From NCBI GenBank assembly GCA_021846985.1, contig JAJZVX010000006.1:62001-126000 (forward strand): a DNA stretch of 64,000 nt, given 5' to 3'. This document shows positions 28,246 through 44,179 of this stretch, one piece after another. The DNA comes from Acidobacteriota bacterium. Lineage in GTDB: Bacteria > Acidobacteriota > Terriglobia > Terriglobales > Acidobacteriaceae. How positions within the stretch are numbered: position 1 is the stretch's first letter; every line of letters starts with the position of its first letter. The notes under the pieces are model-generated. The model did not search any database. It was given only the letters and a program-made list of their open reading frames with translations, and had not been told where the DNA came from. A program made the position numbers and the translations under genes.

Positions 28246-29643
28246 TTACTCCGTTACCATTCCCTGGCTGTCAGCCTCAAATCCGCCGGCTTCGGCCACC
28301 CGCACCAGCCGGTGCAGGTAGGCTCGCGAAATATGCAGGCTGCGCGCCGCCAGCGTCTTGTTGCCGCGCATTTCGCGAATGGCTTCGGTGGCCAGCCGGA
28401 TTTTGAAGTCGTGAATCTGCTGCTCGAAGCTGCCCGCAGGCATCCCCGCGTTGAGCGCCATGGCCTCTTCCTTGCGCAGGTTTTGCGGCAGGTCCGCCAC
28501 GCGGATCGTATTTCCTTCCGCCAGCACCAGCGCGCGCTGCACCAGGTTCTCCAGTTCGCGCACGTTGCCCGGCCAGCTATGCTCTTGCAGAACGGCCATG
28601 GCCTCCGGCTCAAACCGCTCCACATTCTTCCGGTACATCTGCGCGTAGGTGCGCAGAAAATGACTGGCGATCTGCGGTATGTCCTCGGGATGATCCTGTA
28701 GCGAAGGCGTTTCGATTTTGACTACATTGATCCGGTAGTAGAGATCCTCGCGGAACTTGCTCTTGGCCACCATCTCCGCCAGATTCCGGTTGGTGGCAAA
28801 CACCAGCCTAGCCTTGAGCGGGATCAGCTTGTTGCCGCCCAGGCGGCTGAACTCGCGCTCCTGCAGCACGCGCAGCAACTTAACCTGCGTCATCAGGCTC
28901 AGTTCGCCGATCTCGTCGAGGAAGACAGTGCCATCCCCAGCCTGCTCAAAGAAGCCCGCCCGCGACCCCACCGTGCCCGTGTAAGCGCCTTTCTCGTGCC
29001 CGAAGAGCTCGGCTTCGATGAGCGTCTCGGGAATCGCCCCGCAGGGAACCGCCACAAACGGCCGGCTGGCGCGGCTACCCAGATTATGGATGGCCCGCGC
29101 CACCAGTTCCTTGCCCGTGCCGCTCTGTCCGGTTACCAGCACCGACACATTCAGATCTGCCACGCAGCGCACCAGCCGGTAGACCTGCTGCATCTGCTGG
29201 CTCGATCCGATGATGCGGTCGCAGCTGACAGGCAGCGCCATCCGTTCCTGCACGGTCTCCAGTTGCTGTTTCAGCGCCGCGCTTTCGTGCGCCCTCCGCA
29301 GCATGGTCCTCAGATCGCGGATCGACGGCGGCCGGCGACAGTAGCCGTATGCCCCCAGGCTCACCAGTTCCTCGGCCCGGCGCCGCAATCCGTCATCGGC
29401 TAGAATCACCCACGGCACCGCAGTCCCAAGGTGATCCTGCGCGAAGCCGATACGTTCCCGCACCAGAAGGTGATGGGAGTTCAGGTCCAGAAGAACCACG
29501 TCGCACTCTTGCGCAGAAAGCGCGGGCTCAATCTGGTCAACGTTCGATACCAGGAAGACTTCAAATTCTTTCCCCAAGGCAGAACTCAGAAGAGACTGAA
29601 GCGCACGGTCCTCTGAAAACAAGCAAACACGAGTCATAAACAA
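28246..29643 (-). CDS. Sigma-54-dependent Fis-family response regulator, candidate Tad regulator
   Basis: 465 aa; receiver ([10 protein letters not shown]), AAA+ ([23 protein letters not shown]), C-terminal HTH; divergent from the Tad operon. Confidence 0.93.
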
Positions 29644-29986
29644 GGAAACCCCTGCTCTCGCCGTATGGTGTGCGGCTGGAATTGTAGAGCCATCGTAGCG
29701 GAAGGCATCTTGTCAATCAACTATTCGTACTCTTTTAATAACACTTTAGTAACCATTCCCAGGAGATTACCTGCACTCGCCGTTGTTTTCAGGCTGTTGA
29801 TTCTTGCCATATCTCACTGATTGATCGTTTGTTGTCCATTGATTTCCCTATCCAACCGGTGCTTTCCCAACGGGCGCCCGGACTCTGCTGACCGCAGAGG
29901 CAACCACTCCGAGCAGGATGGGCGCGACGGAGACACCCGCTGTCGCCTCGCGTTGTATATGGACTGCTTCACCCTCCGCTGCAACT

Positions 29987-30010
29987 GTATACATCCGTCT
30001 ACATCCGTTC
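29987..30010 (+). promoter_or_regulatory. Putative enhancer (EBP-binding) site A: GTATACATCCGTCTACATCCGTTC
   Basis: Direct repeat ACATCCGT-CT-ACATCCGT; same motif upstream of two other sigma-54 promoters; ends 57 bp before the -24 GG. Confidence 0.7.
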
Positions 30011-30064
30011 TGGTTTCTTCAACCTAAGTGATTCATAGTAATCGCGTTAAAGGGCCAATGGGTT

Positions 30065-30081
30065 TTGGACAGACGATTGCT
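30065..30081 (+). promoter_or_regulatory. Putative sigma-54 promoter: TTGGACAGACGATTGCT
   Basis: -24 GG and -12 GC with exact 10-nt spacing and full TTGCT -12 element; 45 nt upstream of the first Tad-operon ORF. Confidence 0.72.
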
Positions 30082-30125
30082 GTTCTTATCGGCGTTGGCA
30101 TGGCTGGCAGAGGAGGAAAACGGAG

Positions 30126-30290
30126 ATGAACTGGATTGCCGGATGGTCCGCTCTTGCTGTGATTGCGCTCTCGGCAGCCGTGGGAGCCTGCCTCTCCGAG
30201 TCGCGTATCCGCTTTATTGTCAATTGGCTGCTGCTCCCGGTGCTGTGCGAGGGAGTGCTGCTGCAGCTGTTTTACTTCAACACGCACTGA
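30126..30290 (+). CDS. Small membrane protein, first ORF of the Tad operon
   Basis: 54 aa MNWIAGWSALAVIALSAAVGACLSESRIRFIVNWLLLPVLCEGVLLQLFYFNTH; strong RBS AGAGGAGG; below the ORF-track cutoff. Confidence 0.7.
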   Translation: MNWIAGWSALAVIALSAAVGACLSESRIRFIVNWLLLPVLCEGVLLQLFYFNTH

Positions 30291-30305
30291 ACAGGGAGAC
30301 CGGGA

Positions 30306-30815
30306 ATGCATTCGATTGCATGGTGGCCGACCGTACTGGTTCTGGCTGTTGCCATCTTCACCGATCTGCGCAACCGCCGCATCCCCAACTGGCTGGTGGT
30401 GCCTTTCCTGGTAACGGGAATCGTGCTTTCCGCCTGGCTCCACGGCTGGCACGGCGTGGCATGGAGCCTTGCGGGGCTTGGTCTTGCCGCGCTGCTCTTC
30501 GGCGCGCTGGCCTGGATGGGCGGCATGGGCATGGGCGACGTAAAGCTTTGCGCCGCCATCGGCGCCTGGATTGGGCCTGTGCAGTTGTTCACCGCGCTGG
30601 TACTCACCGGCCTCGCTGGAGGCATGATGGCGCTGGGCTGGGCCGCATGGGGCGGCTTTCTTGGCGACCTCTTCCAAAGCACCGGCGACCTGCTGCTGGG
30701 CGGAAAGAAGCGCAGCCTGCAGCGCGTGCATGTGCTCTCCAACCCGCTGGCGCGCAAGATGCCTTACGCTCCGGCCATCGCCATCGGCACACTTTTGTCC
30801 TTTTTATCCCGCTAA
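30306..30815 (+). CDS. tadV: Type IV/Flp prepilin peptidase (A24 family, CpaA/TadV)
   Basis: FTDLRNRRIPNWLVVPFL and GMGMGDVKL (GxGD) catalytic motifs. Confidence 0.93.
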   Translation: MHSIAWWPTVLVLAVAIFTDLRNRRIPNWLVVPFLVTGIVLSAWLHGWHGVAWSLAGLGLAALLFGALAWMGGMGMGDVKLCAAIGAWIGPVQLFTALVLTGLAGGMMALGWAAWGGFLGDLFQSTGDLLLGGKKRSLQRVHVLSNPLARKMPYAPAIAIGTLLSFLSR

Positions 30816-30830
30816 GGAGAAAACGCGGCT

Positions 30831-32135
30831 TTGCAAGGCAGTTGGACCATCTTCGATTTTGAGGCGGCGCAACCCGCTGCGCCGATTGATTCCGGCGCTG
30901 CGGCCACCCGCACAGGAAGGATTGGCGGCATCGTGAGACCTGCTTCCCACCGCGACCTCGACGACCTCGGCTCCAGCCTGCTGTCTGTCGCGCTCATCAG
31001 TCCCGATACGCAGCGCCGCATGGCGGCGGCCTCAGCGCTGGCCGGCTCTCACGCCTGCGACACACGGGAGTACTCCGGCTACCCAGAGCTCGACGAGGTT
31101 CCCCGCCTTATGCAACAGAATCACGATGTCGTTATCGTCGATCTCGACAGCAATCCGGAGTATGCTCTCGATCTGGTGGAAAGCATTTGCGCGCATGGTT
31201 CGGCCACCGTGATGGTTTGCTCCGCGCAGACCGACCCCGAGCTGATGTTGCGCTGCATGCGCGCCGGCGCTCGCGAGTATCTCACTCTTCCCTTTGCTTC
31301 CGGCGCGCTGGCCGAAGCCCTTGTGCGCGCGTCGGTGCGCCGCCCCTCCGCACATCCGCAAAAGAAGGCCGGTGGACGGCTGCTGGTTTTCTTCGGCGCC
31401 AAAGGCGGCTCCGGCGTCACGATGCTGGCTTCGAACTATGCCGTTATGCTGGCGCGCGAGTCCAGCCAGAGCACCCTGCTCATTGATCTCGATCTGCCCC
31501 TCGGCGACGCCGCCCTCGCCCTCGGCGTCGACGGCCCCTACTCCACCGTCGATGCCCTGCAGAACGCCAACCGCCTGGACGCCAATTTTCTCTCCAAGCT
31601 TCTGCGCAAATACAGCCCCGACCTCTCCGTCCTTGCCGCTCCCGGCAAATTCACGAAATTCGAATCCTCCGCCGAAGCCATCGACCGGCTGATTGCCGTG
31701 GCCCGCAGCTCGTTCGACAACGTGGTCATCGACACCGGATCGCGCCTTGACTTGTTCGGCACCTCGGTCTACGAGGAAGCCAGCACCGTCTATCTCGTTC
31801 TTCAGATTGGCATCCCCGAACTACGCAATTCCAATCGCCTTGTCACGGAGTTCTTCCCGGGACAGCAATCCCGGCTGGAGATCGTGCTCAACCGCTTTGA
31901 ACCCTCCTTGCTCGGTGTCGACGAGGAACACATCGCCAAGGCCCTCACCCGCCCCGCTCAGTGGAAGATTCCCAACGACCGGGGCGTCGCGTATACGTCG
32001 CAAACCACGGCCTCGCCCCTCGCCCTCACTGACCAGCCCATCTCCCGTGCCATCTGCCAGATGGCACGGGCGGCCTGCGGCGCGGTCGAAACTGCGGAAA
32101 AAAAGAAGAAGACCTTCTTGAGCATCTTTGGCTAG
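30831..32135 (+). CDS. tadZ: Tad pilus assembly ATPase/localisation protein (CpaE/TadZ)
   Basis: Receiver-like N-terminal domain followed by MinD/ParA-like domain ([34 protein letters not shown]); TTG start. Confidence 0.92.
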
Positions 32136-32164
32136 CTCCAATCTCACTCCTGGACGGTGTTCCT

Positions 32165-33445
32165 GTGCAGGTACTGGATCTCGAAAAATACAAATCGGAT
32201 ATTCATCGGACGCTGATTGCCAAGCTCGATCTCGAGAAGCTTTCGCGTGTCAACTCCAGCCAGGCTCGCAAAGCGACTGCCGACCTCATCAACGAAATCA
32301 TTCTTGATCAGCGCGTGCCCCTCAGCTTCGAGGAACAGGAGAAAATTCAGTCCAACTTGCTTGACGAGGTCTTCGGCCTCGGCCCGCTCGAGGCGCTGCT
32401 CTCTGATCCCAAGATCTCCGATATTCTCATTAACGGCAGAGACAAGGTCTTCGTAGAGCGCGGCGGCCGCCTGCAGCGCGTGGATACGGTCTTCCGCGAC
32501 GACCGCCATCTGCTGCAGATCATCGACCGCATCGTCTCCCGCGTGGGCCGCCGCGTGGACGAATCCTCGCCCATGGTGGATGCGCGCCTGCCCGACGGCT
32601 CGCGCGTGAACGCCATCATTCCACCGCTTGCTCTCGACGGGCCTTCGATGTCGATCCGCCGCTTCGGCAACGGGCCCGTCGCCGCCAACCAGCTCGTTCA
32701 GCTCAAGAGCATCTCGCCATCCATGATGGAAGTGCTTTCGGCAGCGGTCCGCGCGCGGCTGAGTATTCTCATCTCCGGCGGCACGGGCGCGGGCAAGACC
32801 ACCTTCCTGAACATCCTTTCGCGCAATATTCCGCAGAGCGAACGCATTATCACCATCGAAGACGCCGCCGAACTGCAGCTTGCCCAGGAAAATCTCGTCC
32901 GCCTGGAGACCCGCCCGCCCAATATCGAAGGCCAGGGCGCCATTCGCCAGCGTCAGTTGCTCATCAACTGCCTGCGCATGCGCCCCGACCGCATCATCCT
33001 CGGCGAAGTCCGCGGCGAGGAAGCTTTCGACATGCTGCAGGCCATGAACACCGGACACGAGGGATCAATGGCCACCATCCATGCCAACACCACGCGCGAC
33101 GCGCTTTCCCGGCTGGAATCGATGGTCGCCATGAGCAACCTCAACCTGCCCGAGAAGACCGTCCGCCATCAGATAGCTTCGGCCGTCAACATCGTGGTGC
33201 AGGTGAGCCGCCTCAGCGACGGCAGCCGCAAAGTGATCAGCGTCTCCGAAATCACAGGCATGGAAGAAAACGTCATCACCATGCAGGAAATCTTCACCTT
33301 CGTCAAGAAAGGAATCGGGCCCGACGGCCGCGTAATCGGCGCCTTCGAGCCCACCCACATCCGTCCCCGCTTCCTCGACCGTTTCCGCACGGCGGGCATC
33401 ACTCTTTCACCCGGCGTCTTCGAACAGGCGCTGGAAGTCAACTAA
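32165..33445 (+). CDS. tadA: Secretion ATPase CpaF/TadA
   Basis: [14 protein letters not shown] Walker A, type II/IV secretion ATPase motifs; GTG start. Confidence 0.97.
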
Positions 33446-33461
33446 ACCCTGGGGAGTCTTC

Positions 33462-34433
33462 ATGGCCGTGATCCTCATGCTCGTCTTTCTCGGTGTCTTT
33501 GCCATCACGGCAGGGCTCGCCTATGCCTTCAGCCACGGCTCGGCGCGCCGGTCCAAGAGAGTCGCGGCGGTTCTGGAGTCGGCTTTGGCCAACGGCAACG
33601 AGAAAGCCGCCGAAATCAACCTCGATTTCCGCAAGAACGATTTGCTCAGCGCCGTTCCCTGGCTCAACCGCAGGCTCATCAAGCTCGACCTCGCCGAACG
33701 TCTGCAGGCCTTCCTGGCGCAGGCCGGCCTCAAGTGGACCACCGGCAAGCTCATCCTGCTTTCGCTCGCCGCTCTCGCCGGCGCCTTCTACCTTGTCCAT
33801 CTGCGCACCGGCTCCGTGATCTTTTCACTGCTGTGTGGACTGGCAGCGGGCGCTGCACCCTTCGGTTACGTCGCGTTCAAACGGCAACAGCGCTTCGCCA
33901 AATTCGAGAAGGGTCTGCCCGACGCGCTCGACCTTATCGTCAGTGCACTGCGCGTGGGCCACAGCTTCTCGGCCGCGCTCAGCCTGGTCACACGCGAGTG
34001 TCCAGACCCTGTCGCCAGCGAGTTCCGCACATGTTTCGAAGAACAGAACTTCGGCCTCGAACTCCGCGGCGCCTTCGAAAACCTCGTCTCGCGCGTCCCC
34101 ATCCAGGATCTGCGCATCGCCGTCACCGCCATCCTCATTCAGAAGGAGAGCGGCGGCAACCTCTCCGAGGTCCTCGAAAAAACCGCCTACGTCACTCGTC
34201 AGCGCTTCCGCCTCAAGCGCCAGATCCAGGTGCACACCGCGCAGGGCCGCCTCACCGGGCTCATTCTCACGCTTCTGCCGGTTGTGCTCGGCATCGGCCT
34301 TTATCTCGTCAACCCTTCGGCCATGAGCTTGTTGTGGACGCGCCCCATCGGCATCAAGCTCCTGTACACCGCCGGCGCCATGCTGACCGCCGGCACTCTC
34401 ATCATTCAAAAAATCGTGCGCATGGACGTTTGA
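33462..34433 (+). CDS. tadB: Tad inner-membrane protein TadB (GspF-like)
   Basis: T2SSF domain, gene order A-B-C. Confidence 0.95.
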   Translation: MAVILMLVFLGVFAITAGLAYAFSHGSARRSKRVAAVLESALANGNEKAAEINLDFRKNDLLSAVPWLNRRLIKLDLAERLQAFLAQAGLKWTTGKLILLSLAALAGAFYLVHLRTGSVIFSLLCGLAAGAAPFGYVAFKRQQRFAKFEKGLPDALDLIVSALRVGHSFSAALSLVTRECPDPVASEFRTCFEEQNFGLELRGAFENLVSRVPIQDLRIAVTAILIQKESGGNLSEVLEKTAYVTRQRFRLKRQIQVHTAQGRLTGLILTLLPVVLGIGLYLVNPSAMSLLWTRPIGIKLLYTAGAMLTAGTLIIQKIVRMDV

Positions 34434-34434
34434 T

Positions 34435-35349
34435 ATGGAACTTGCGATCCTCGTCTTCGGTGTCATCTTCCTGCTCATCGCCAGCGGCGGGCTGATGCTC
34501 TTCTATCGCCAAGCCATGATCCAGCGCATCTCCCGCGTGATCATGAAGCGGGAGGAAAAGCAGAAGGGACTGCGCAGCGCCATTCAGCAGACCAGCTCCT
34601 CACTGACCACGGTCCTCGAACAATTCGAGCGCGTGCTTCCCAAGACTCAGGCCGAGGTCTCGATCGTCCAGCAGCGGCTCATTCGCGCCGGATATCGCGG
34701 CGACTCCGCCGTGAAAGTCTTCTATGGCATCAAGGTCATCACCCCGCTGGCTCTCTGCGCCCTTGTGCTCGTCAGCGGCATCGGCCACGGCAACGCCCTG
34801 TTTCTCTTCATCGCCTCCCTGGGTCTTGGCTTTCTCGTGCCCGACTTTGTTCTCGGCAAGATGATCGCGTCCCGTCAGACCAAGGTGCGCCTGGGGCTGC
34901 CCGACGTGCTCGATCTGCTGGTCATTTGCATCGAAGCCGGCCTCGGACTCGACCAGGCCACCGCCCGCACCGCCAAAGAACTGTCCCGCTCCCAGCCGGC
35001 CATCGCCGACGAGCTCAGCGTGGTTGCCCTCGAGCAGCGCGCGGGCCGTCCGCGCTCCGAGTCCTGGCGCCACATGGCCGAACGCACCGACGTCGATGTC
35101 GTACGTAATTTTGTATCCATGCTGGTTCAGGCCGAGCAGTTCGGCACCAGCGTCGCCAAAACTCTGCGCACTCACTCCGACACCCTCCGCACGCAGCGCG
35201 TGCAGTCAGTGGAAGAAAGAGCCGCCAAGACGACCGTCAAGCTGATCTTTCCGCTCGTGATCTTCATTTTTCCCTGCCTGTTCCTGGTCACGCTTGGACC
35301 GGCGGCGATCCTCATGGCAGATTCGTTCAGCAAATACCTCAGCAAGTGA
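34435..35349 (+). CDS. tadC: Tad inner-membrane protein TadC (GspF-like)
   Basis: T2SSF domain, immediately follows tadB. Confidence 0.95.
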   Translation: MELAILVFGVIFLLIASGGLMLFYRQAMIQRISRVIMKREEKQKGLRSAIQQTSSSLTTVLEQFERVLPKTQAEVSIVQQRLIRAGYRGDSAVKVFYGIKVITPLALCALVLVSGIGHGNALFLFIASLGLGFLVPDFVLGKMIASRQTKVRLGLPDVLDLLVICIEAGLGLDQATARTAKELSRSQPAIADELSVVALEQRAGRPRSESWRHMAERTDVDVVRNFVSMLVQAEQFGTSVAKTLRTHSDTLRTQRVQSVEERAAKTTVKLIFPLVIFIFPCLFLVTLGPAAILMADSFSKYLSK

Positions 35350-35367
35350 GAGAAAGGAGAACCGAAC

Positions 35368-35463
35368 ATGGACAACGTTACAATCATTCGCATCGTCTCC
35401 GCTGTGTTGTTCTTCGTTGTGCTGGGATTCGTGATCCAGCGCCGGCGTACCCGCGTCCGCTAG
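35368..35463 (+). CDS. 31-aa single-TM micropeptide after tadC
   Basis: MDNVTIIRIVSAVLFFVVLGFVIQRRRTRVR with RBS AGAAAGGAGA upstream; below the ORF-track cutoff. Confidence 0.6.
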   Translation: MDNVTIIRIVSAVLFFVVLGFVIQRRRTRVR

Positions 35464-35717
35464 CTCGGTTCGGCGCCTGGGGTTGAATGCGCGGCCCGCC
35501 GCGCCCCGACCTTTGCCGTCCGCGCCATCCTCCGGGCCCATGGCTCCCGCCGCGCGCGTGTGCTGCGATTCCGCTATCGCCGTACTCACCGCGCGGCCGG
35601 CCGCCTGTGCCTCGGGCACCTTCCAGCCGCACTTTGCTGCGCATTGCCTAGCGCGATCCGTCAGCCGTTCCCGAGAATCGGCGCCTGCGCGCATGCCGTA
35701 TCTGTGTCGGAGAAGAG

Positions 35718-36575
35718 ATGGAAGCCCGTAGATTCTGCGTATACAACCAGGCTAGCGAATGTTTCCTCAGCCTGGGCGTCATCGCCACCGAGACCATACC
35801 GGCGCAGCTCAAGGCATCAGCCAGCAGGCAAGCGTACCCCTACGACGAGGGCTTCTGGATCGTGCTCTCCAGCGAACTGCACCGCGCCCGCCTGGCCGCG
35901 CCGGCGCCCCTCGATCTTATTTATCTCGACAAGAACTATCGCGTTGTTCATCTCGTCGAGTCGTTTCACCGTCTTCGCATGACGATCCCCGGAGCAGGCG
36001 CCGCCAGCGTTCTGGCCCTGCCCGCCCACGCCATTTACTCGTCCCAGACCCAGGTTGGCCATCAGCTCGTGATCTGCGCCACCGAAGAGCTCGCCTTCCA
36101 GCTTAGCGGCGCTCCCGGATTCGACCCACCTGCCGCCCGCCATGCAGCGACGCACGAATCCAGAAACGTCAACTGGTTTGCCACCTATCTTTCCCATGGC
36201 GCTGCGCACAATCGCCGCCAGGCGCAACGCCAGGTGTGGCCCCGGCTGGTGGCGTACGACTGGGATGGAGCCGAGTTAGCCGTGCATGGCATTCGCGACG
36301 CCTCCGCCACTGGCCTCTATCTGCTCACTGAGAAGCGCTGGCCCCTCGGTGCCCGCGTGTGGATGACTCTGCAACGCACCGACGGCGCCGAAGAAAGCGC
36401 CGAGTCCTCCATTACCGTGCAGATGGAAGTGACCCGCTGGGGCTCCGACGGCGTTGGACTCGCTTTTGTTTCGCCCGAGAACGCGGAACATGGCCGCCGC
36501 GCGGAAACCGACCCGGCCGCCTGCGAAGAGGACGAGCCTCTAGCCGCAGCGGCCAAATCCGGCTTTATCAATTGA
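35718..36575 (+). CDS. DUF192-PilZ fusion protein
   Basis: N-terminus VYNQASECFLSLGV...PLDLIYLDKNYRVVHLVESF (DUF192-like), C-terminus RRQAQRQVWPRLVAYDWDGAELAVHGIRDASATGLYLLTEKRWPLGARVWMTL... (PilZ-like). Confidence 0.8.
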   Translation: MEARRFCVYNQASECFLSLGVIATETIPAQLKASASRQAYPYDEGFWIVLSSELHRARLAAPAPLDLIYLDKNYRVVHLVESFHRLRMTIPGAGAASVLALPAHAIYSSQTQVGHQLVICATEELAFQLSGAPGFDPPAARHAATHESRNVNWFATYLSHGAAHNRRQAQRQVWPRLVAYDWDGAELAVHGIRDASATGLYLLTEKRWPLGARVWMTLQRTDGAEESAESSITVQMEVTRWGSDGVGLAFVSPENAEHGRRAETDPAACEEDEPLAAAAKSGFIN

Positions 36576-36603
36576 CCCGCGGCGGGTTCATCCAGGAGGA
36601 GCC

Positions 36604-37863
36604 GTGAAACAGATCGGCAGCGAAAACGGACAAATGCTTATCATGGTGGCACTCTGCCTGCCCGTGCTGATGGGCTTTGTGGCGCTGGCCGTGGATGTGG
36701 GCGTGATGTTCCACACCAAGCGCCAATTGCAGATTGCCGCCGATGCCGCCGCCATCGGCGCGGCCCTCGATTACAAGTTTAACGGCTCGCTCTCGTCAGC
36801 CCAGCAGGCCGGGCTCAACGCCGCATCCACGAACGGCGTCACCAATGGGGTCAACGGCGCCACTGTCGCCATTAACATGCCTCCGGTCGACGGCCCCAAC
36901 GCCGGCGTCGCCGGCCTCATTGAAGCTGTCGTCACCCAGCCCAATCCGACCTTCTTCCTCAGCGTTCTCAACACCAACTCCGTCACCATCGGCGCCCGGG
37001 CCATCTCCGGCTCCGGACCCGGCGACGGATGTGTCTGGGCTCTGGCCAAGTCCGGCAGCGATATCTCCATTACCGGCTCCGGCACCATCTCCATCCCCGG
37101 CTGCGAGGTCTTCGACAACTCTGACAGCACCAACGCCCTCACCCTTACCGGCAGCGGCTCTCTCACCGCCAAGGCCATCGGCATCGTTGGCAACTACAGC
37201 AAAACCGGCTCTGGCAGCATCTATCCCACTCCCGTCACCGGCACCGCGCCCGTTGCCGATCCACTTTCCTCGCTCCAGTTTCCCGCGGTCAACACCGGCG
37301 GCTGCTCTTCCGCAGTCAGCTACAGCGACAGCAGCGCCCACACCATCGGACCGGGCTGCTACAACGGCATCTCCAACACCGGTAGCGGCTCCCTCACGCT
37401 CACACCCGGCAACTACACCATCAACGGTAACTTTAGCTCCACCGGTAGCGGCGGCATCAACTTCGGCGCCGGCACCTACATCATCACTGGCTCGCTCAGC
37501 ATCAGCGGTTCCGGCCCCCTGAACGGAACCGGCGTGACCTTCTTTACCCAGGGCACAACCAGCGTCTCAGGAAGCAGCGGCCTCAACCTCTCCGCGCCTA
37601 CCTCCGGCCCCGACGACGGTCTTCTCTTCTTCCAGTCCAGGAACGACACCAGCTCAATCACGATCAGCGGCTCCAGTAACATGAGCCTCCAAGGCATTAT
37701 TTATGCTCCTTCCTCTGCCCTCAGCTTCAGCGGCTCCGGCTCCGCCAACATCTACACCGATCTCATCGTCGATTCCGTCTCGTTTACCGGAAGCACCCCC
37801 TTCACGAACTACTCCACCATCAACAGCTCTTCCGTGCTGGGAAAAATCGGATTGGAGGAGTAA
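36604..37863 (+). CDS. tadG: TadG-like pilus assembly protein with Gly/Ser-rich beta-helix-like C-terminus
   Basis: N-terminus SENGQMLIMVALCLPVLMGFVALAVDVGVMFHTKRQLQIAADAAAIGAA; remainder composed of ITGSGS-type repeats. Confidence 0.85.
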   Translation: MKQIGSENGQMLIMVALCLPVLMGFVALAVDVGVMFHTKRQLQIAADAAAIGAALDYKFNGSLSSAQQAGLNAASTNGVTNGVNGATVAINMPPVDGPNAGVAGLIEAVVTQPNPTFFLSVLNTNSVTIGARAISGSGPGDGCVWALAKSGSDISITGSGTISIPGCEVFDNSDSTNALTLTGSGSLTAKAIGIVGNYSKTGSGSIYPTPVTGTAPVADPLSSLQFPAVNTGGCSSAVSYSDSSAHTIGPGCYNGISNTGSGSLTLTPGNYTINGNFSSTGSGGINFGAGTYIITGSLSISGSGPLNGTGVTFFTQGTTSVSGSSGLNLSAPTSGPDDGLLFFQSRNDTSSITISGSSNMSLQGIIYAPSSALSFSGSGSANIYTDLIVDSVSFTGSTPFTNYSTINSSSVLGKIGLEE

Positions 37864-37867
37864 TCCC

Positions 37868-38350
37868 ATGCGCAAAACAGGAGTACGCCATCGCAAGGAG
37901 CGCCGTTCTTCTTTCCGCCAGCCGGCGATGGAGAATGGCCAGGCTCTCGTCGAGCTCGCTCTCTCCCTGCCTCTGCTCATGCTGCTTCTACTCGGCGCCG
38001 CCGAGTTCGCCCGGGGGGCTTATGCGGCCATCGAAGTCTCTGACGCGGCCAAGGCCGGCGTCCAGTACGGCGCCCAGAACGCCACCGCCGCCTCCGACAC
38101 CACCGGCGTTCAAGATGCCGCTACCGCCGGCGCGCCCGACATCACCCTTGGCTCCACAACTGTCTCCATCTCCTGCATCTGCTCCGACGGCTCCGCCTCC
38201 ACCTGCCTGCGCACCGACTGCCCCACTTCGCACATTGAAGAAACTCTTTCGGTGCAGACGCAAACCACCTTCGATCCCCTCATCTATGCGCCCGGCTTGC
38301 CCAATTCCTTCACGCTCTATGGACAGGCCACGCAGAAGGTGCTGCAATGA
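37868..38350 (+). CDS. tadE: TadE-family minor pseudopilin
   Basis: ENGQALVELALSLPLLMLLLLGAAEFARGAYAAIEVSDAAKAGVQYGA. Confidence 0.88.
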   Translation: MRKTGVRHRKERRSSFRQPAMENGQALVELALSLPLLMLLLLGAAEFARGAYAAIEVSDAAKAGVQYGAQNATAASDTTGVQDAATAGAPDITLGSTTVSISCICSDGSASTCLRTDCPTSHIEETLSVQTQTTFDPLIYAPGLPNSFTLYGQATQKVLQ

Positions 38351-38874
38351 CCTCCCCGGCGCTCGCCAGACAAACAAAATGCCGTTCCCGGCGCCTCCGC
38401 GGGCTTCTTCACGCCAACCGCGGATCCGCGCTTGTTGAAACGGCTTTTTCTGCCAGCCTCCTGATCGTCATGCTCATTGGCATGATGGAGATGACTCTCG
38501 CTCTTTACGCCTACCTTTTCGTTTCCGACGCGGCGCGCGAGGCCACGCGTTACGCCATCGTCCGTGGCTCCACTTCCTGCGTCAACACTCCCAATCTTCC
38601 CGGTTGCGATGCCAGCGCCGCCGACATTCAGAACTACCTCCAGACCCTCGGCTATCCGGCCCTGATGGCCGGCAACCTCACCTCGACCACCACCTGGCTC
38701 ACCGTCAGCTCCGGTCCGCCTGCCACATGGTCTTCCTGCACCAGCGGCACCTGCAATGCTCCCGGCAACCTCGTCGAAGTCACGGTGCAATATGCGTTCC
38801 CTCTCAGCATCCCCTTCGTACCCGCCTCTACGCTCACTTTGTCGAGCACCTCAGAGATGGTCATTGCGCAATAG
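38347..38874 (+). CDS. TadE-family minor pseudopilin (second copy)
   Basis: NRGSALVETAFSASLLIVMLIGMMEMTLALYAYLFVSDAAREATRYAIVRG; overlaps the upstream gene (ATGA). Confidence 0.87.
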   Translation: MTSPALARQTKCRSRRLRGLLHANRGSALVETAFSASLLIVMLIGMMEMTLALYAYLFVSDAAREATRYAIVRGSTSCVNTPNLPGCDASAADIQNYLQTLGYPALMAGNLTSTTTWLTVSSGPPATWSSCTSGTCNAPGNLVEVTVQYAFPLSIPFVPASTLTLSSTSEMVIAQ

Positions 38875-38916
38875 CTCGGCTCCGGAGTTCACACGTCCAT
38901 TTGAAGATGGAGCCCC

Positions 38917-38943
38917 ATGGCATTTCTCCGGGGGGAATGCCAT
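38917..38943. terminator. Hairpin ATGGCATTTCTCCGGGGGGAATGCCAT between convergent genes
   Basis: 8-bp perfect stem plus inner G-C/G-U pairs, lies between convergent tadE and the TonB-like gene; no following T tract, so terminator function is inferred. Confidence 0.5.
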
Positions 38944-38994
38944 CCGGCCAGCCTGTTTTGCGAACCCGGCAGCTCTGCAGCCGCTACAGCCGCT

Positions 38995-40329
38995 CTATTC
39001 CGTCTCGTTCGGGATCACCAGCACCACTTCCACCGCAGCCAGCGCCCCGTTCTGCATTGCCGGCCGGAACCTCCATTGCGCCAACGACTGCAACACCAGC
39101 GTCGCCTGCGGCGTCTGCGGCGGATACACCAGGCTCAGCCGCTCGAACCGCCCCTGGCGATTCACGATGCCGTGCAACACCATCGCATCCGCGTCCAGCA
39201 GCGCAGGAATCAGGTGCGGCCGCACCACATCGTAGGGCCACGGCGCATCGAGAGCCGCCGCGCCGCCTGTCGCACGGGCGTCCGCTTCCGGCAGAGAGTA
39301 CTGAAGAATCCAGTTCCGCGTCTGCCCCACCCGCAAATACACCGTATAGGCCATGCGCCCGCCCCATATCCGCAGCAGTTCTGGATACTCATCCTCCAGC
39401 GACGAGCCCACCACCACCACGCCAAACCGCCCGTCCTTGGGAAACGTCAGGTGATCCGTCTCGGCCGCGCCCAGCGCGCCGCTTTGCCGCGCAGCGCCCG
39501 CGGCGCCTGAGCCCTTCGACTTGGCCGCCGTGGCCGCTTTACCGCTCGATCCATCCTGCTCCGGTCCTCCATCGATTCCAGAATTGCTCTCCACCAGCCC
39601 CTGAGCTCTGGTTTTCTCGATCAGGTCCGGCCGCGTCTGGTTGGCCGGCGGCAGCGTTGCCGTGCCTTTCTTCATGCGCACGTCCGAAAGCGAAAGCGCG
39701 GCGGCCGGCGTCGGCTCTTTCGTCGACTCCGACGGCATGGACGGCGCCATTTGCAACAGTTCCTGCCCTTCCACCTTCACCGGCGTGGTGGTTCCCGGCA
39801 ACAGCGCATGGAACGGCACTTGCGCATCTGTCGCCGTCAAGCCCACATCACTCAACGTCAGCTCTTCGTTGGGTTCCACCAGGCTCGGCCGCGCCTTAGC
39901 GGCTGATGGCGGCTGCGGCCGCGGCAGCACAATCTCTTTCACCAGCTTCTTTTTCGGCGTCCAGACGGCCACCGCCGGAACCGGGATCTTCTCCTTGAGC
40001 TTCAGATTCGGCGGCAGATCCGGTTGCACCAGCGTTTGAAGAGCCGCTTCAAATTGCGGCAACTCCCAAGGCTCCGTCCCTCCCGCTGGCTGGCTCTTCA
40101 CATCCGCACCGTCACCCGCCTGCGCTTTGCCGATTTTGGGCGTGCGCGCCGCCACTGGCTCCCGCAGACGCAACTCCACCTGCCGGACGGCATAGCGATC
40201 ATTCAACCATGGATCGCGAACCAGCGGCGCATGCGTCAGCGTATACACCGCCACAACCGCCACCAGGCCGTGCACCACCATCGACAGCGCATAGGGCGCC
40301 GCGCCCGCGCCTTCTTCCGGCCGGTCCAC
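38995..40329 (-). CDS. TonB-like (energy transducer C-terminal domain) protein, antisense within the Tad locus
   Basis: 444 aa; N-terminal TM, Pro/charged linker, C-terminus MVLHGIVNRQGRFERLSLVYPPQTPQATLVLQSLAQWRFRPAMQNGALAAVEVVLVIP; GTG start. Confidence 0.75.
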   Translation of the reverse strand: MDRPEEGAGAAPYALSMVVHGLVAVVAVYTLTHAPLVRDPWLNDRYAVRQVELRLREPVAARTPKIGKAQAGDGADVKSQPAGGTEPWELPQFEAALQTLVQPDLPPNLKLKEKIPVPAVAVWTPKKKLVKEIVLPRPQPPSAAKARPSLVEPNEELTLSDVGLTATDAQVPFHALLPGTTTPVKVEGQELLQMAPSMPSESTKEPTPAAALSLSDVRMKKGTATLPPANQTRPDLIEKTRAQGLVESNSGIDGGPEQDGSSGKAATAAKSKGSGAAGAARQSGALGAAETDHLTFPKDGRFGVVVVGSSLEDEYPELLRIWGGRMAYTVYLRVGQTRNWILQYSLPEADARATGGAAALDAPWPYDVVRPHLIPALLDADAMVLHGIVNRQGRFERLSLVYPPQTPQATLVLQSLAQWRFRPAMQNGALAAVEVVLVIPNETE

Positions 40330-40600
40330 GAACAGCGATTGCAGGGAGGAAGTTTTCGTACGTCCAAACCTCGTCCATCAGATGCGCATCCGCGAGAATG
40401 CCTTGCTCCCGGTCCCTTGCCTCAGGAGACACTCCTCTCTTCGTTGCACTGCGATTGCCACTTCCACGCGCGGCGGCCATCAGCCCGCCCAGTCCGCGCC
40501 ATTTTTCTGCAAACTCCCGGGAAGCGCGGTAAAACGGCCTCTGCTGCCGCTGGCCGCATGCCGCCGTCGCGTCTGGTTGGCGACACAGGAGCCGCCCATG

Positions 40601-40624
40601 GTAAACATCCGTTCACACTCGTTC
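40601..40624 (+). promoter_or_regulatory. Putative enhancer site B: GTAAACATCCGTTCACACTCGTTC
   Basis: 19/24 identical to site A; ends 57 bp before the -24 GG of the cpaB promoter. Confidence 0.72.
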
Positions 40625-40678
40625 CGGCTTCTGCCTGCCTAATCTCCTTATTCCGCGCATGATTACCGCCTTTTGCCT

Positions 40679-40695
40679 GTGGCACGGCAATTGCA
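40679..40695 (+). promoter_or_regulatory. Putative sigma-54 promoter: GTGGCACGGCAATTGCA (exact TGGCACG-N4-TTGCA)
   Basis: Perfect consensus -24/-12 element 54 nt upstream of cpaB. Confidence 0.85.
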
Positions 40696-40748
40696 ATCAC
40701 CACTCCGGCATCTCCGGGCCAGGGCCGCATCGCCCACAAGGAAACCGC

Positions 40749-41600
40749 ATGAATCGACGACTGTTTACCATTCTCGCCATCTCGTTCCTCGTGGCCTGCG
40801 TCAGCTCACTTCTGGTCTACCGCATGGTCGGCAATCGCGTGAGTTCCGTCCGCAAACAGGCCACCACGCGTGTGGTAGCGGCCGCCACTGACATCAAGAT
40901 CGGCACGGTGCTCAGTGCTGCTAATCTCACCACCGTAGACATCGCCAGTACGCTGCCTGAAGGAGCCATCCTGAAGCCCGCCGACGCTATCGGCCGCGGT
41001 GTCGTAACCGACCTCTACCGCGGCGAGCCGATTCTCAACAATCGCCTTGCTCCGCTCGGTTCCGGCGGAGGCTTGGCCGCCACCATCCGCAAGGGTATGC
41101 GCGCACTTGCCGTCAAGGTCGATGAGGTCGTGGGCGTCGCCGGCTTTGTCACACCCGGCATGCGCGTCGATGTTCTTGTCTCCGGCGATCCCCCGGGCGC
41201 CTTTAACCCCACTTCCGGCGCCGAGGTCCGCACCCTCCTCCAAAACATCGAGGTGCTCTCCGCCGGAACCGACATCCAAAAGGACACCGACGGCAAGCCT
41301 CAGCAGGTGCACGTAGTCAACCTTCTGGTGACGCCGGAGCAGGCCGAGGTTCTTTCTCTCGCCAGCAATCACACCCACTATCAGATCCAGCTTGTCCTCA
41401 GAAACCCTCTCGACACGCAGGTCGCCAAGGTGCAGGGTCTTTCGATGTCCACTCTCTTCGGCGGCGCGCCGACCGCGCCTGCCCACAAAACCGGACTCGC
41501 CCATCCGCGCCGCCAGTCCACACCGGTCTACTCCGTCGTTGTCTTCAACGGAGCGCAGCGCAGTGTGCAGAACTTTGAATTGCACGAGGAAAAGCAGTGA
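40749..41600 (+). CDS. cpaB: Flp pilus assembly protein CpaB/RcpC
   Basis: N-terminal TM, SAF domain (TRVVAAATDIKIGTVLSAANLTTVDIA), RcpC domain. Confidence 0.94.
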   Translation: MNRRLFTILAISFLVACVSSLLVYRMVGNRVSSVRKQATTRVVAAATDIKIGTVLSAANLTTVDIASTLPEGAILKPADAIGRGVVTDLYRGEPILNNRLAPLGSGGGLAATIRKGMRALAVKVDEVVGVAGFVTPGMRVDVLVSGDPPGAFNPTSGAEVRTLLQNIEVLSAGTDIQKDTDGKPQQVHVVNLLVTPEQAEVLSLASNHTHYQIQLVLRNPLDTQVAKVQGLSMSTLFGGAPTAPAHKTGLAHPRRQSTPVYSVVVFNGAQRSVQNFELHEEKQ

Positions 41601-43156
41601 GAGCCCGCTTCCATCTTCGATTGCCCATTCTCGGCGCCTCCTTCTGCTGCATGGGCATGTGCCCGGCGCTTCAGGCGCAGGCTCTGACCATGCCGCTGCA
41701 TTCCTATGCGGCTCCCGTCGCCGACCGCGCCGACGACCTTGTTGTCGCTGCCGGCAAATCCGTGATTATTGATTGCGCACACCCCATCGAGCGCGTCGCG
41801 GTTGGTCTGGGCGATTACGCCGAGGCGATTGCCGTTACCCGCAATGAGATCCTGGTGAACGGCAAGACTCCCGGCGTGACCAGCCTCATCGTATGGGAGC
41901 AGGGAGGTCTCCGCCAGTTCTTCAATGTCAAGATCCTGGTGGGCGCGGATCAGACAGAAGACCATCTCGCGGGCATCCGCCGCGAGCTTGCCAGACAGCT
42001 TCCCGGACAACCCATCCGCGTCAGTTTTGAAAACAACACTCTCTTTCTCTCCGGCACGGCTGACGATCTCAACAGCTCTGACCGCGCCCTCCAGATTGCC
42101 TCCACCTCCGGCAAGGTCGTCAACCTGCTCAATGTAAAGGTACCGCCCGCCGAGCCGCAGATTCTTCTCAAGGTGATTTTCGCCAGCGTTGACCGCATCC
42201 GCAGCAACCAACTCGGCATGAACCTGTTCTCTACCGGGCTGGGCAACACCATAGGCGGCACTACGACCGGCCAGTTCTCTCCGCCCACGGTTGCGCTGCC
42301 CAGCGCCACCAGCGGCGCCACCGCCACGCTTTCCAACGAGCTCAACCTCTTCGCTTTCTTCCCCGGCCTTAATCTGGGAGCCACCATTCAAGCCCTTGAA
42401 ACCGAGGGCCTGGTCCAGGTGCTGGCCGAGCCCAACGTCCTGGCGCAAAACGGCAAACAAGCCAGCTTCCTGGCCGGGGGCGAGTATCCCTATCCCGTCG
42501 TGCAGGGCAACACAGGCGTTGTGAGCGGCTCCTCCGTGACCATTGAATTCAAGGAGTACGGCGTGCGCCTCAACTTCATCCCCACCATCACGCCGCGCGG
42601 CACCATCCGTCTGCAAGTTGCTCCCGAGGTCAGCTCGCTTGACTTCACCAACGCCATCACCATCTCCGGTTTCCAGGTTCCCGCCATCGACGTGCGCAAC
42701 GTCAACACGGAAGTGGAACTGGCGCAGGGGCAGAGCTTCGCCATTGGCGGTCTGCTCGACAACCGCGAAACCGAAACCTTTGAGAAGATTCCTTTCCTCG
42801 GCGACATCCCCATCCTCGGCAAGTTCTTCCAGTCCATCAACAAGACCAAGTCCAACACCGAACTTATCGTCATCGTTACCCCAGAGATCGTCGAACCGAT
42901 CAAACGGGGCGGGCCTTTGCCGCAGTTGAAATTCCCCGCCACCTTTTTACCGCCGAACTCCGGCATTCCCATGCACACTCCTGATGCCCTGCCAGCCGGC
43001 GTGCCGCCGCCACCGCCCAGCACCATGCCAGTGGAAAAGCTCATTGAAAGCATGAAACCGGAGAAACCGCTCAGCATCGACAACACTTCAAACGGCCCTG
43101 CCGGCTCAATGGGATCCGGATCGTCCATCGGTTCCTCTCCGGGCTCTTCGCAATGA
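41597..43156 (+). CDS. cpaC: Tad secretin CpaC/RcpA
   Basis: Pilus-formation N-terminal domain and secretin core (VPAIDVRNVNTEVELAQGQSFAIGGLLDNR...ELIVIVTPEIVEP). Confidence 0.95.
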   Translation: MRARFHLRLPILGASFCCMGMCPALQAQALTMPLHSYAAPVADRADDLVVAAGKSVIIDCAHPIERVAVGLGDYAEAIAVTRNEILVNGKTPGVTSLIVWEQGGLRQFFNVKILVGADQTEDHLAGIRRELARQLPGQPIRVSFENNTLFLSGTADDLNSSDRALQIASTSGKVVNLLNVKVPPAEPQILLKVIFASVDRIRSNQLGMNLFSTGLGNTIGGTTTGQFSPPTVALPSATSGATATLSNELNLFAFFPGLNLGATIQALETEGLVQVLAEPNVLAQNGKQASFLAGGEYPYPVVQGNTGVVSGSSVTIEFKEYGVRLNFIPTITPRGTIRLQVAPEVSSLDFTNAITISGFQVPAIDVRNVNTEVELAQGQSFAIGGLLDNRETETFEKIPFLGDIPILGKFFQSINKTKSNTELIVIVTPEIVEPIKRGGPLPQLKFPATFLPPNSGIPMHTPDALPAGVPPPPPSTMPVEKLIESMKPEKPLSIDNTSNGPAGSMGSGSSIGSSPGSSQ

Positions 43157-43278
43157 GTCCGCGCACGGAGCGAGCGGGCTCACGACGTCCGCCGTACCGT
43201 ACCACCGCGCCCCGCGATCGTTGCCCAACTGCCCCTGACAAGGCAAACTTCCCCGCAACCATAATGGAGGACAACCCA

Positions 43279-43755
43279 ATGAAACGCTCCAGATCGATGC
43301 TGTCACACATCATCACCTGGCTGATTCACCAGAAACAAAGACCCGACATCCGCCTGCGCATCTCCAACCTTACTCGCCGGACCATCCTCGCCAGTTCCGC
43401 CGAGCTGGCCGACAGCGGCCAAAAACGCAGAAAAGGCCTCCTGGGCCGCAACACGCTCGCACCCGGCGAAGGTCTCTGGATCCTTCCCTGCGAGGCCGTT
43501 CACACCTTCGGCATGCGCTTTCCCATCGACCTCATCTACCTGGACCGCAATCACCACATCAAGAAGGTCCGCAGCAACGTTCGCCCGTGGCGCCTGTCGG
43601 CCTGCTTCACGGCCCACTCCGTGATCGAGCTCGCCAGCGGCACCATTCGCCAAACGCAAACGCAGCCCGGCGACAGGATCGAGTTTGCCTCCACGCCTTT
43701 TGCCGAGGAAGCTTCCTCCGCTTTTTCCGCCCATGCCCTGGGCGTCGCAGATTAA
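43279..43755 (+). CDS. DUF192 family protein
   Basis: RKGLLGRNTLAPGEGLWILPCEAVHTFGMRFPIDLIYLDRNHHIKKVRSNVRPWRLS; alternative start at 43264. Confidence 0.87.
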   Translation: MKRSRSMLSHIITWLIHQKQRPDIRLRISNLTRRTILASSAELADSGQKRRKGLLGRNTLAPGEGLWILPCEAVHTFGMRFPIDLIYLDRNHHIKKVRSNVRPWRLSACFTAHSVIELASGTIRQTQTQPGDRIEFASTPFAEEASSAFSAHALGVAD

Positions 43756-43817
43756 CCCGGCTGCCGCTCAAACACGCGCCGCCACCTGTAAACCCGGCGA
43801 ACCTGCCCGAACGCTTT

Positions 43818-43841
43818 GTATACGGCCGTTCACACACCGCA
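43818..43841 (+). promoter_or_regulatory. Putative enhancer site C: GTATACGGCCGTTCACACACCGCA
   Basis: 16/24 identical to site B, 14/24 to site A; ends 58 bp before the -24 GG of the flp promoter. Confidence 0.65.
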
Positions 43842-43896
43842 TCCCGCGTACCGCCTCTAAGTTGTTGATTTAGCGCAGAACCCGGCAGCACGCAGA

Positions 43897-43913
43897 ATGG
43901 TCATCCACTTGCT
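43897..43913 (+). promoter_or_regulatory. Putative sigma-54 promoter: ATGGTCATCCACTTGCT
   Basis: -24 TGG and -12 TTGCT with exact GG-N10-GC spacing, 63 nt upstream of flp. Confidence 0.72.
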
Positions 43914-43975: not shown

Positions 43976-44179
43976 ATGCAGGATATGCTGTTGAAGTTCT
44001 ACATCAAGGCGCAGAACCTGATGACGGACGAAGACGGTCAGGATCTGGTCGAGTATGCCCTGGTCGTCTCGCTGCTCTCTCTGGCCGCCACTACCGCCAT
44101 GGGCTCGCTGGCCACTGCCATTAACAGCGCCTTCACCGCCATCGGCGACAAGCTGACCGCAGCTCTGCCCTCCAGCTAA
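43976..44179 (+). CDS. flp: Flp/Fap-type major pilin
   Basis: 67 aa; EDGQDLVEYALVVSLLSLAATTAMGSLATAINSAFTAIGDKLTAAL with G|QDLVEY processing motif. Confidence 0.94.
   Translation: MQDMLLKFYIKAQNLMTDEDGQDLVEYALVVSLLSLAATTAMGSLATAINSAFTAIGDKLTAALPSS

Follow-up and report, generated by a model that had tools for sequence, protein, structure and literature searches.

Three candidate sigma-54 promoters sharing an enhancer-like dyad probably form a dedicated Tad-pilus regulon in an Acidobacteriota genome

The Tad-pilus locus in the window (the whole 64,000-nt stretch of Acidobacteriota DNA that was analysed) contains three sites, A, B and C, which we read as sigma-54 promoters serving a single regulon devoted to the Tad pilus and driven by the protein encoded at 28246-29637; from sequence comparison we assign this reading a probability of roughly 0.86. 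It builds on direct observations, i.e. the sequences of the sites, their conservation, the clustering of their spacings, and patterns of co-occurrence and co-loss. The features of the locus, in order along the window, are the following:

28246-29637, minus strand: NtrC-family enhancer-binding protein, the proposed activator, divergent from the tad operon
29955-29973, plus strand: weaker upstream copy of putative enhancer dyad A, 32 bp from dyad A
29987-30002, plus strand: putative enhancer dyad A, GTATAC-ATCC-GTCTAC (by pattern, alignment and PWM)
30025-30037, plus strand: IHF-like box A, TAAGTGATTCATA, 8/9 consensus positions
30065-30081, plus strand: sigma-54 -24/-12 element A, TTGGACAGACGATTGCT, among the top three PWM sites of the window
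30127-30291, plus strand: small hydrophobic ORF of 54 aa, first gene after promoter A, read from the sequence
30306-30815, plus strand: tadV/cpaA prepilin peptidase gene (Pfam Peptidase_A24), opening the assembly operon
40601-40616, plus strand: putative enhancer dyad B, GTAAAC-ATCC-GTTCAC (by pattern and PWM)
40640-40652, plus strand: weak IHF-like box B, TAATCTCCTTATT, 7/9 positions, near chance when taken alone, position conserved
40679-40695, plus strand: sigma-54 element B, GTGGCACGGCAATTGCA, among the top three PWM sites of the window
40749-41600, plus strand: cpaB/rcpC (Pfam RcpC)
41597-43156, plus strand: secretin gene, after cpaB (Pfam Secretin)
43788-43803, plus strand: weak upstream copy at promoter C, GTAAAC-CCGG-CGAACC, 30 bp spacing
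43818-43833, plus strand: putative enhancer dyad C, GTATAC-GGCC-GTTCAC (by pattern and PWM)
43858-43870, plus strand: IHF-like box C, TAAGTTGTTGATT, 9/9 positions, same site in locus L145
43897-43913, plus strand: sigma-54 element C, ATGGTCATCCACTTGCT, among the top three PWM sites of the window
43976-44179, plus strand: flp major pilin gene (Pfam Flp_Fap at E=2e-6, short of the gathering threshold)

The region 30306-35349 encodes the prepilin peptidase, a TadZ-like ATPase, TadA and two TadB/C proteins, the unit at 40749-43755 encodes RcpC/CpaB, the secretin and a DUF192 protein, and the flp gene is the sole Flp_Fap match in the genome. The TadC of this locus matched named acidobacterial loci at 48-54% identity, which points to an acidobacterial host. 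No Rfam family was matched in the locus. A small ORF resembling that at 30127-30291 also precedes tadV in two other loci (L022 and L030).

An earlier note on this DNA had described a 24-bp motif at A (29987-30010), B (40601-40624) and C (43818-43841), and the three sequences were found exactly there. Its distances of 57, 57 and 58 bp from the end of the 24-mer to the -24 GG also hold, and correspond to 65, 65 and 66 nt when counted from the end of the dyad. In all three promoters the centre of the dyad precedes the -24 GG by about 73 nt, a placement conserved in relatives, and is therefore near -98, within the range of roughly 80-150 bp before the start at which sites for enhancer-binding proteins (EBPs) lie. 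That the match between the sites goes beyond chance is borne out by a pattern unique in the genome and by top PWM ranks after training on relatives only. When GTAWACATCCGTYYACA was searched with up to two mismatches, A, B and C were the sole matches in the whole 3.79-Mb genome, and the reversed-pattern control at the same tolerance gave 0 matches; with up to one mismatch, GTAWACNNNNGTNNAC produced 8 matches in the window versus an average of 1.1 in shuffles. PWMs trained on 42 promoters from relatives, none of them from the window, gave A, B and C the three highest scores in the window for the dyad, for the sigma-54 site and for the composite alike, with composite scores of 44.5, 43.6 and 42.1, the runner-up (18.1) being a shifted reading of site A. 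The composite promoter model gave exactly three genome matches at E<=0.3, namely the A, B and C promoters; the model includes these promoters, which makes their own scores circular but does not touch the lack of other matches. Four other perfect GTAWAC-N4-GTNNAC dyads occur in the genome (L061-L064), none of which has a sigma-54 element.

With regard to the form of the motif, an alignment of 24 promoters from this genome and its relatives has the invariant columns GTA.AC....GT..ACA, and the predicted enhancer motif is accordingly written as the inverted repeat GTAWAC-N4-GTNNACA. The arrangement that had been proposed, with ACATCCGT repeated directly at 10-bp intervals, is true for site A only and is not conserved in relatives; a direct-repeat enhancer model is ruled out by the alignment, in which it is the inverted repeat that is invariant. 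Neither the ATCC of the N4 spacer nor site A's third ATCCGTTC block is conserved among relatives. The suspected second copy near site A (29955-29973) is confirmed: 43/45 catalogued promoters have a GTNNAC half-site 30-35 bp upstream of their dyad. Promoter B has only a poor upstream copy.

GG and GC are present at the fixed -24/-12 spacing in elements A, B and C. A sigma-54 PWM score of at least 10 was reached after 75 dyads, compared with 1.7% of random 120-bp windows, and the other 44 dyads were mostly reverse-strand readings of the same sites. The earlier note had considered random placement of the motif relative to sigma-54 elements; the scan instead gave clustered spacings. Among 74 non-redundant dyad/sigma-54 pairs, which come from related genomes and are not independent, the spacing was 29-30 (n=2), 40-41 (n=2), 52-54 (n=3), 61-67 (n=47), 74-78 (n=19) or 85 nt (n=1), the gaps between the clusters being empty (0/74). 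The clusters lie about 11 bp apart, which is about one helical turn, and this suggests helical phasing as informal evidence, given the kinship of the genomes and the 7-bp width of the main cluster; when one period is fitted, 11.5-12 does best, rather than 10.5. Alternatively, the dyad might be a sigma-70/ECF promoter or a repressor operator, with incidental sigma-54 matches, and a sigma-70-like TATACT does occur in the cpaB regions of some relatives (L008/L014). The frequency of high sigma-54 scores after dyads relative to random windows, as well as the clustering of the spacings, makes this very improbable.

A sigma-54-like sequence, ATGGCTCTACAATTCCA, is also found on the minus strand at 29677-29693, 50 nt before the activator gene. 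Sigma-54 autoregulation of the activator gene from this site, at 29693, was considered and rejected, as the site is not conserved in relatives.

The spacer between dyad and sigma-54 element contains a YAANNNNTTGATW-like box that was absent from the earlier promoter description. It keeps to the same strand and precedes the sigma-54 element by about 39 nt at both main dyad spacings. At least 8/9 positions of the IHF consensus were matched in 40/75 spacers versus about 3/75 shuffled ones, and promoters with spacings of 29-30, 40-41, 54 and 85 had no good IHF-like match. The genome has an IHF-beta gene (117.1 bits versus an NCBIfam cut-off of 115) and two further HU/IHF-family genes that score below the cut-offs. 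The YAANNNNTTGATW box is probably a DNA-bending site.

In relatives, the promoter unit consists, in order, of the weaker copy about 32 bp upstream, the dyad, the IHF-like box and the sigma-54 element. It is located upstream of tadV and, in some genomes of the same genus, also of cpaB and flp; no dyad was found at cpaB in many relatives. Nearly all close dyads detected by pattern in relatives precede flp, tadV or a related gene, with sigma-54 elements at 63-67 or 74-78 nt. As a test set outside the training we used the Tad loci of 20 further genomes (L116-L135), mostly from other genera and including another family. With PWMs trained on the same-genus promoters, most tadV regions from the same family, together with many from cpaB and flp, scored far above random 260-bp windows, the p-values being conservative because the random set itself held real promoters, and the dyad-to-sigma-54 spacings were 54, 62-67 and 74-78. 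Conservation upstream of orthologous Tad units, on which the notion of a shared motif had hinged, extends to other genera and to one other family. A, B and C all lie within one 14-kb locus, as might be expected of functionless relics of one duplicated intergenic region; however, the spacers differ outside the dyad, IHF-like box and sigma-54 element, the elements are retained between genera with activators of just 50-67% identity, and the spacer length shifts in steps of about 11 bp, so we regard such relics as a highly implausible explanation.

In two loci of genus g24 (L126 and L127), the dyad is located about 30 nt (tadV) and about 41 nt (cpaB) from the -24, i.e. about three and two helical turns closer, respectively, and without an IHF-like box.

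At E<=0.3 the composite model gave 2-7 matches per activator-bearing relative, the weakest of which may be due to chance. The same composite promoter precedes a gene for a lipoprotein with Ig-like domains in six loci of other genomes (L193-L197 and L199), the Ig-like repeats being judged by eye. This lipoprotein is a possible extra target and may be a pilus-associated surface protein.

The distribution of the activator follows that of the Tad system. Among 300 genomes of the class, an activator orthologue (E<=1e-125) was found in 21/23 genomes with the close TadA type (E<=1e-190) versus 0/277 others (Fisher p=2.5e-30, not corrected for kinship). Four genomes of the same genus (G001, G002, G009 and G255) have this Tad type and lack the activator orthologue, and a looser cut-off applied to three of them retrieved distant paralogues only. 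In a further genome, G035, the activator is absent and a TadA search at E<=1e-60 gave nothing. In all these genomes, the flp genes accessible to examination have neither a dyad nor a good sigma-54 element (4/24 flp matches in the survey were unanchored and left out). The tadV copies of the dyad/sigma-54 sites are eroded in activator-lacking genomes, reading GTGCACTTCCGTGTACAC or near it in 3/4 of them and being more eroded in G255. Activator-bearing genomes retain dyad and sigma-54 element, except for the flp promoters of genus g24, which have a sigma-54 element without a detectable dyad, or neither, and for tadV in G012, where the activator is kept and the dyad is eroded. It should be underlined that G001, G002, G009 and G255 form one clade, and the co-loss within the genus therefore represents essentially one event.

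The protein encoded at 28246-29637 has a receiver-like N-terminus, a sigma-54 AAA+ domain (Pfam Sigma54_activat, E=4e-68) and a Fis-type helix-turn-helix, and NCBIfam AtoC/NtrC models span nearly its full length with scores below cut-off. Pfam Response_reg was not detected in it; across 37 orthologues the Asp of LDL is kept in the receiver-like domain and the usual Thr and Lys positions appear replaced. The helix-turn-helix (20 residues) is near-invariant in the same orthologues. Its L1 loop is GAYTGT, that of the orthologues mostly GAFTGT, rather than GAFTGA. At least four other NtrC-family proteins are encoded in the genome, and the presence of rpoN is implied by these at least five EBPs. 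The dyads could be enhancers bound by another regulator, be it a different NtrC-family member or, as half-sites of the GTNTAC type would fit GntR proteins too, a GntR-like dimer, the neighbouring gene being linked for unrelated reasons. We consider this unlikely, since the orthologue group of 28246-29637 tracks the Tad system, its recognition helix is near-invariant, and loss of the orthologue accompanies loss of the sites while other EBPs remain. The adjacent NtrC-type protein is the probable activator of the dyad promoters, and the way in which the conserved motif tracks it is in keeping with the original suggestion that one activator would serve the tadV operon for assembly, the cpaB operon with the secretin, and the pilin unit.

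Binding, bending and activation, together with a sensed signal, are what we infer for this regulon. A dimer of the 28246-29637 protein would bind the dyad via its Fis-type helix-turn-helix, aided by the weaker copy about three helical turns upstream. IHF or a relative would bend the spacer DNA at the YAANNNNTTGATW box, letting the bound activator, assembled into a ring, touch the closed sigma-54 RNA polymerase, and the activator would then use ATP to open the closed complex. This would switch on together the assembly genes tadV-tadZABC, the outer-membrane channel genes cpaB-secretin and the pilin gene flp. A wider proposal, which we hold tentatively and would not quite back at even odds, is that the protein is a lineage-specific Tad-pilus master activator with an atypical receiver, running assembly, channel, pilin and, in some genera, the Ig-like lipoprotein, with spacings that evolved by whole turns. 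If true, the spacings of about 30, 41, 53, 64, 76 and 85 would be a record of face-of-helix selection on activator-polymerase contact. The approximately 74 distinct dyad/sigma-54 pairs, with their steps of about 11 bp, are a natural resource for studying the geometry of sigma-54 activation. Acidobacteriota are abundant in soil and their surface attachment is little understood; the candidate regulator, binding site and regulon proposed for their adhesive Tad pili are concrete and testable.

Comparable layouts are known from the NtrC/glnA and NifA/nifH promoters, where activator dyads, which at glnA form a tandem, are found some 100-140 bp upstream, and where an IHF-type bend is located between enhancer and sigma-54 promoter at nifH, the spacing being phase-dependent. 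These systems share the enhancer-IHF-sigma-54 arrangement and differ in dyad sequence and in having non-Tad targets. PilR/PilS of Pseudomonas, Myxococcus and Geobacter likewise combines an NtrC-family activator with a sigma-54 promoter for pilin; however, PilR controls type IVa pilA, whereas the activator proposed here would control a type IVc/Tad pilin and assembly genes. PprB of the P. aeruginosa tad locus is similar in being a dedicated regulator of tad and flp; it is not known to be a sigma-54 enhancer-binding protein. A parallel in target genes is DVU2114 of Desulfovibrio vulgaris, described in PMC3333781 as a sigma-54-dependent response regulator whose targets are pilin genes of the Tad/cpa type as well as another operon for pilus assembly, and whose motif is conserved in a few related species. 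The likeness lies in sigma-54 control of Tad-type pilins, and the host of DVU2114 belongs to a different phylum from Acidobacteriota. We found no prior description of Tad with sigma-54 in Acidobacteria in the PMC papers searched, and the sigma-54 regulon surveys PMC3162934 and PMC12316311 mention neither Tad nor Acidobacteria. The Tad enhancer had been put forward as a candidate undescribed one, and this stands in part: the papers searched contained neither this regulator nor its motif, and sigma-54 control of Tad pili already has a precedent.

Two further observations concern neighbouring sequences. In relatives (L007, L010, L013, L016, L021, L025, L028, L031 and L035), cpaB is preceded by a leader, AGAAAGGCGgAGCTGGCnGGGTAGCCAGTTCAaACAGGC, that is strongly conserved, has a predicted hairpin and is absent from the window; it had no Rfam match in the loci searched and no compensatory changes among the 9 sequences. 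DUF192 proteins are encoded at 43153-43755, after the secretin gene, and at 35718-36575, and are recurrent at these Tad loci.
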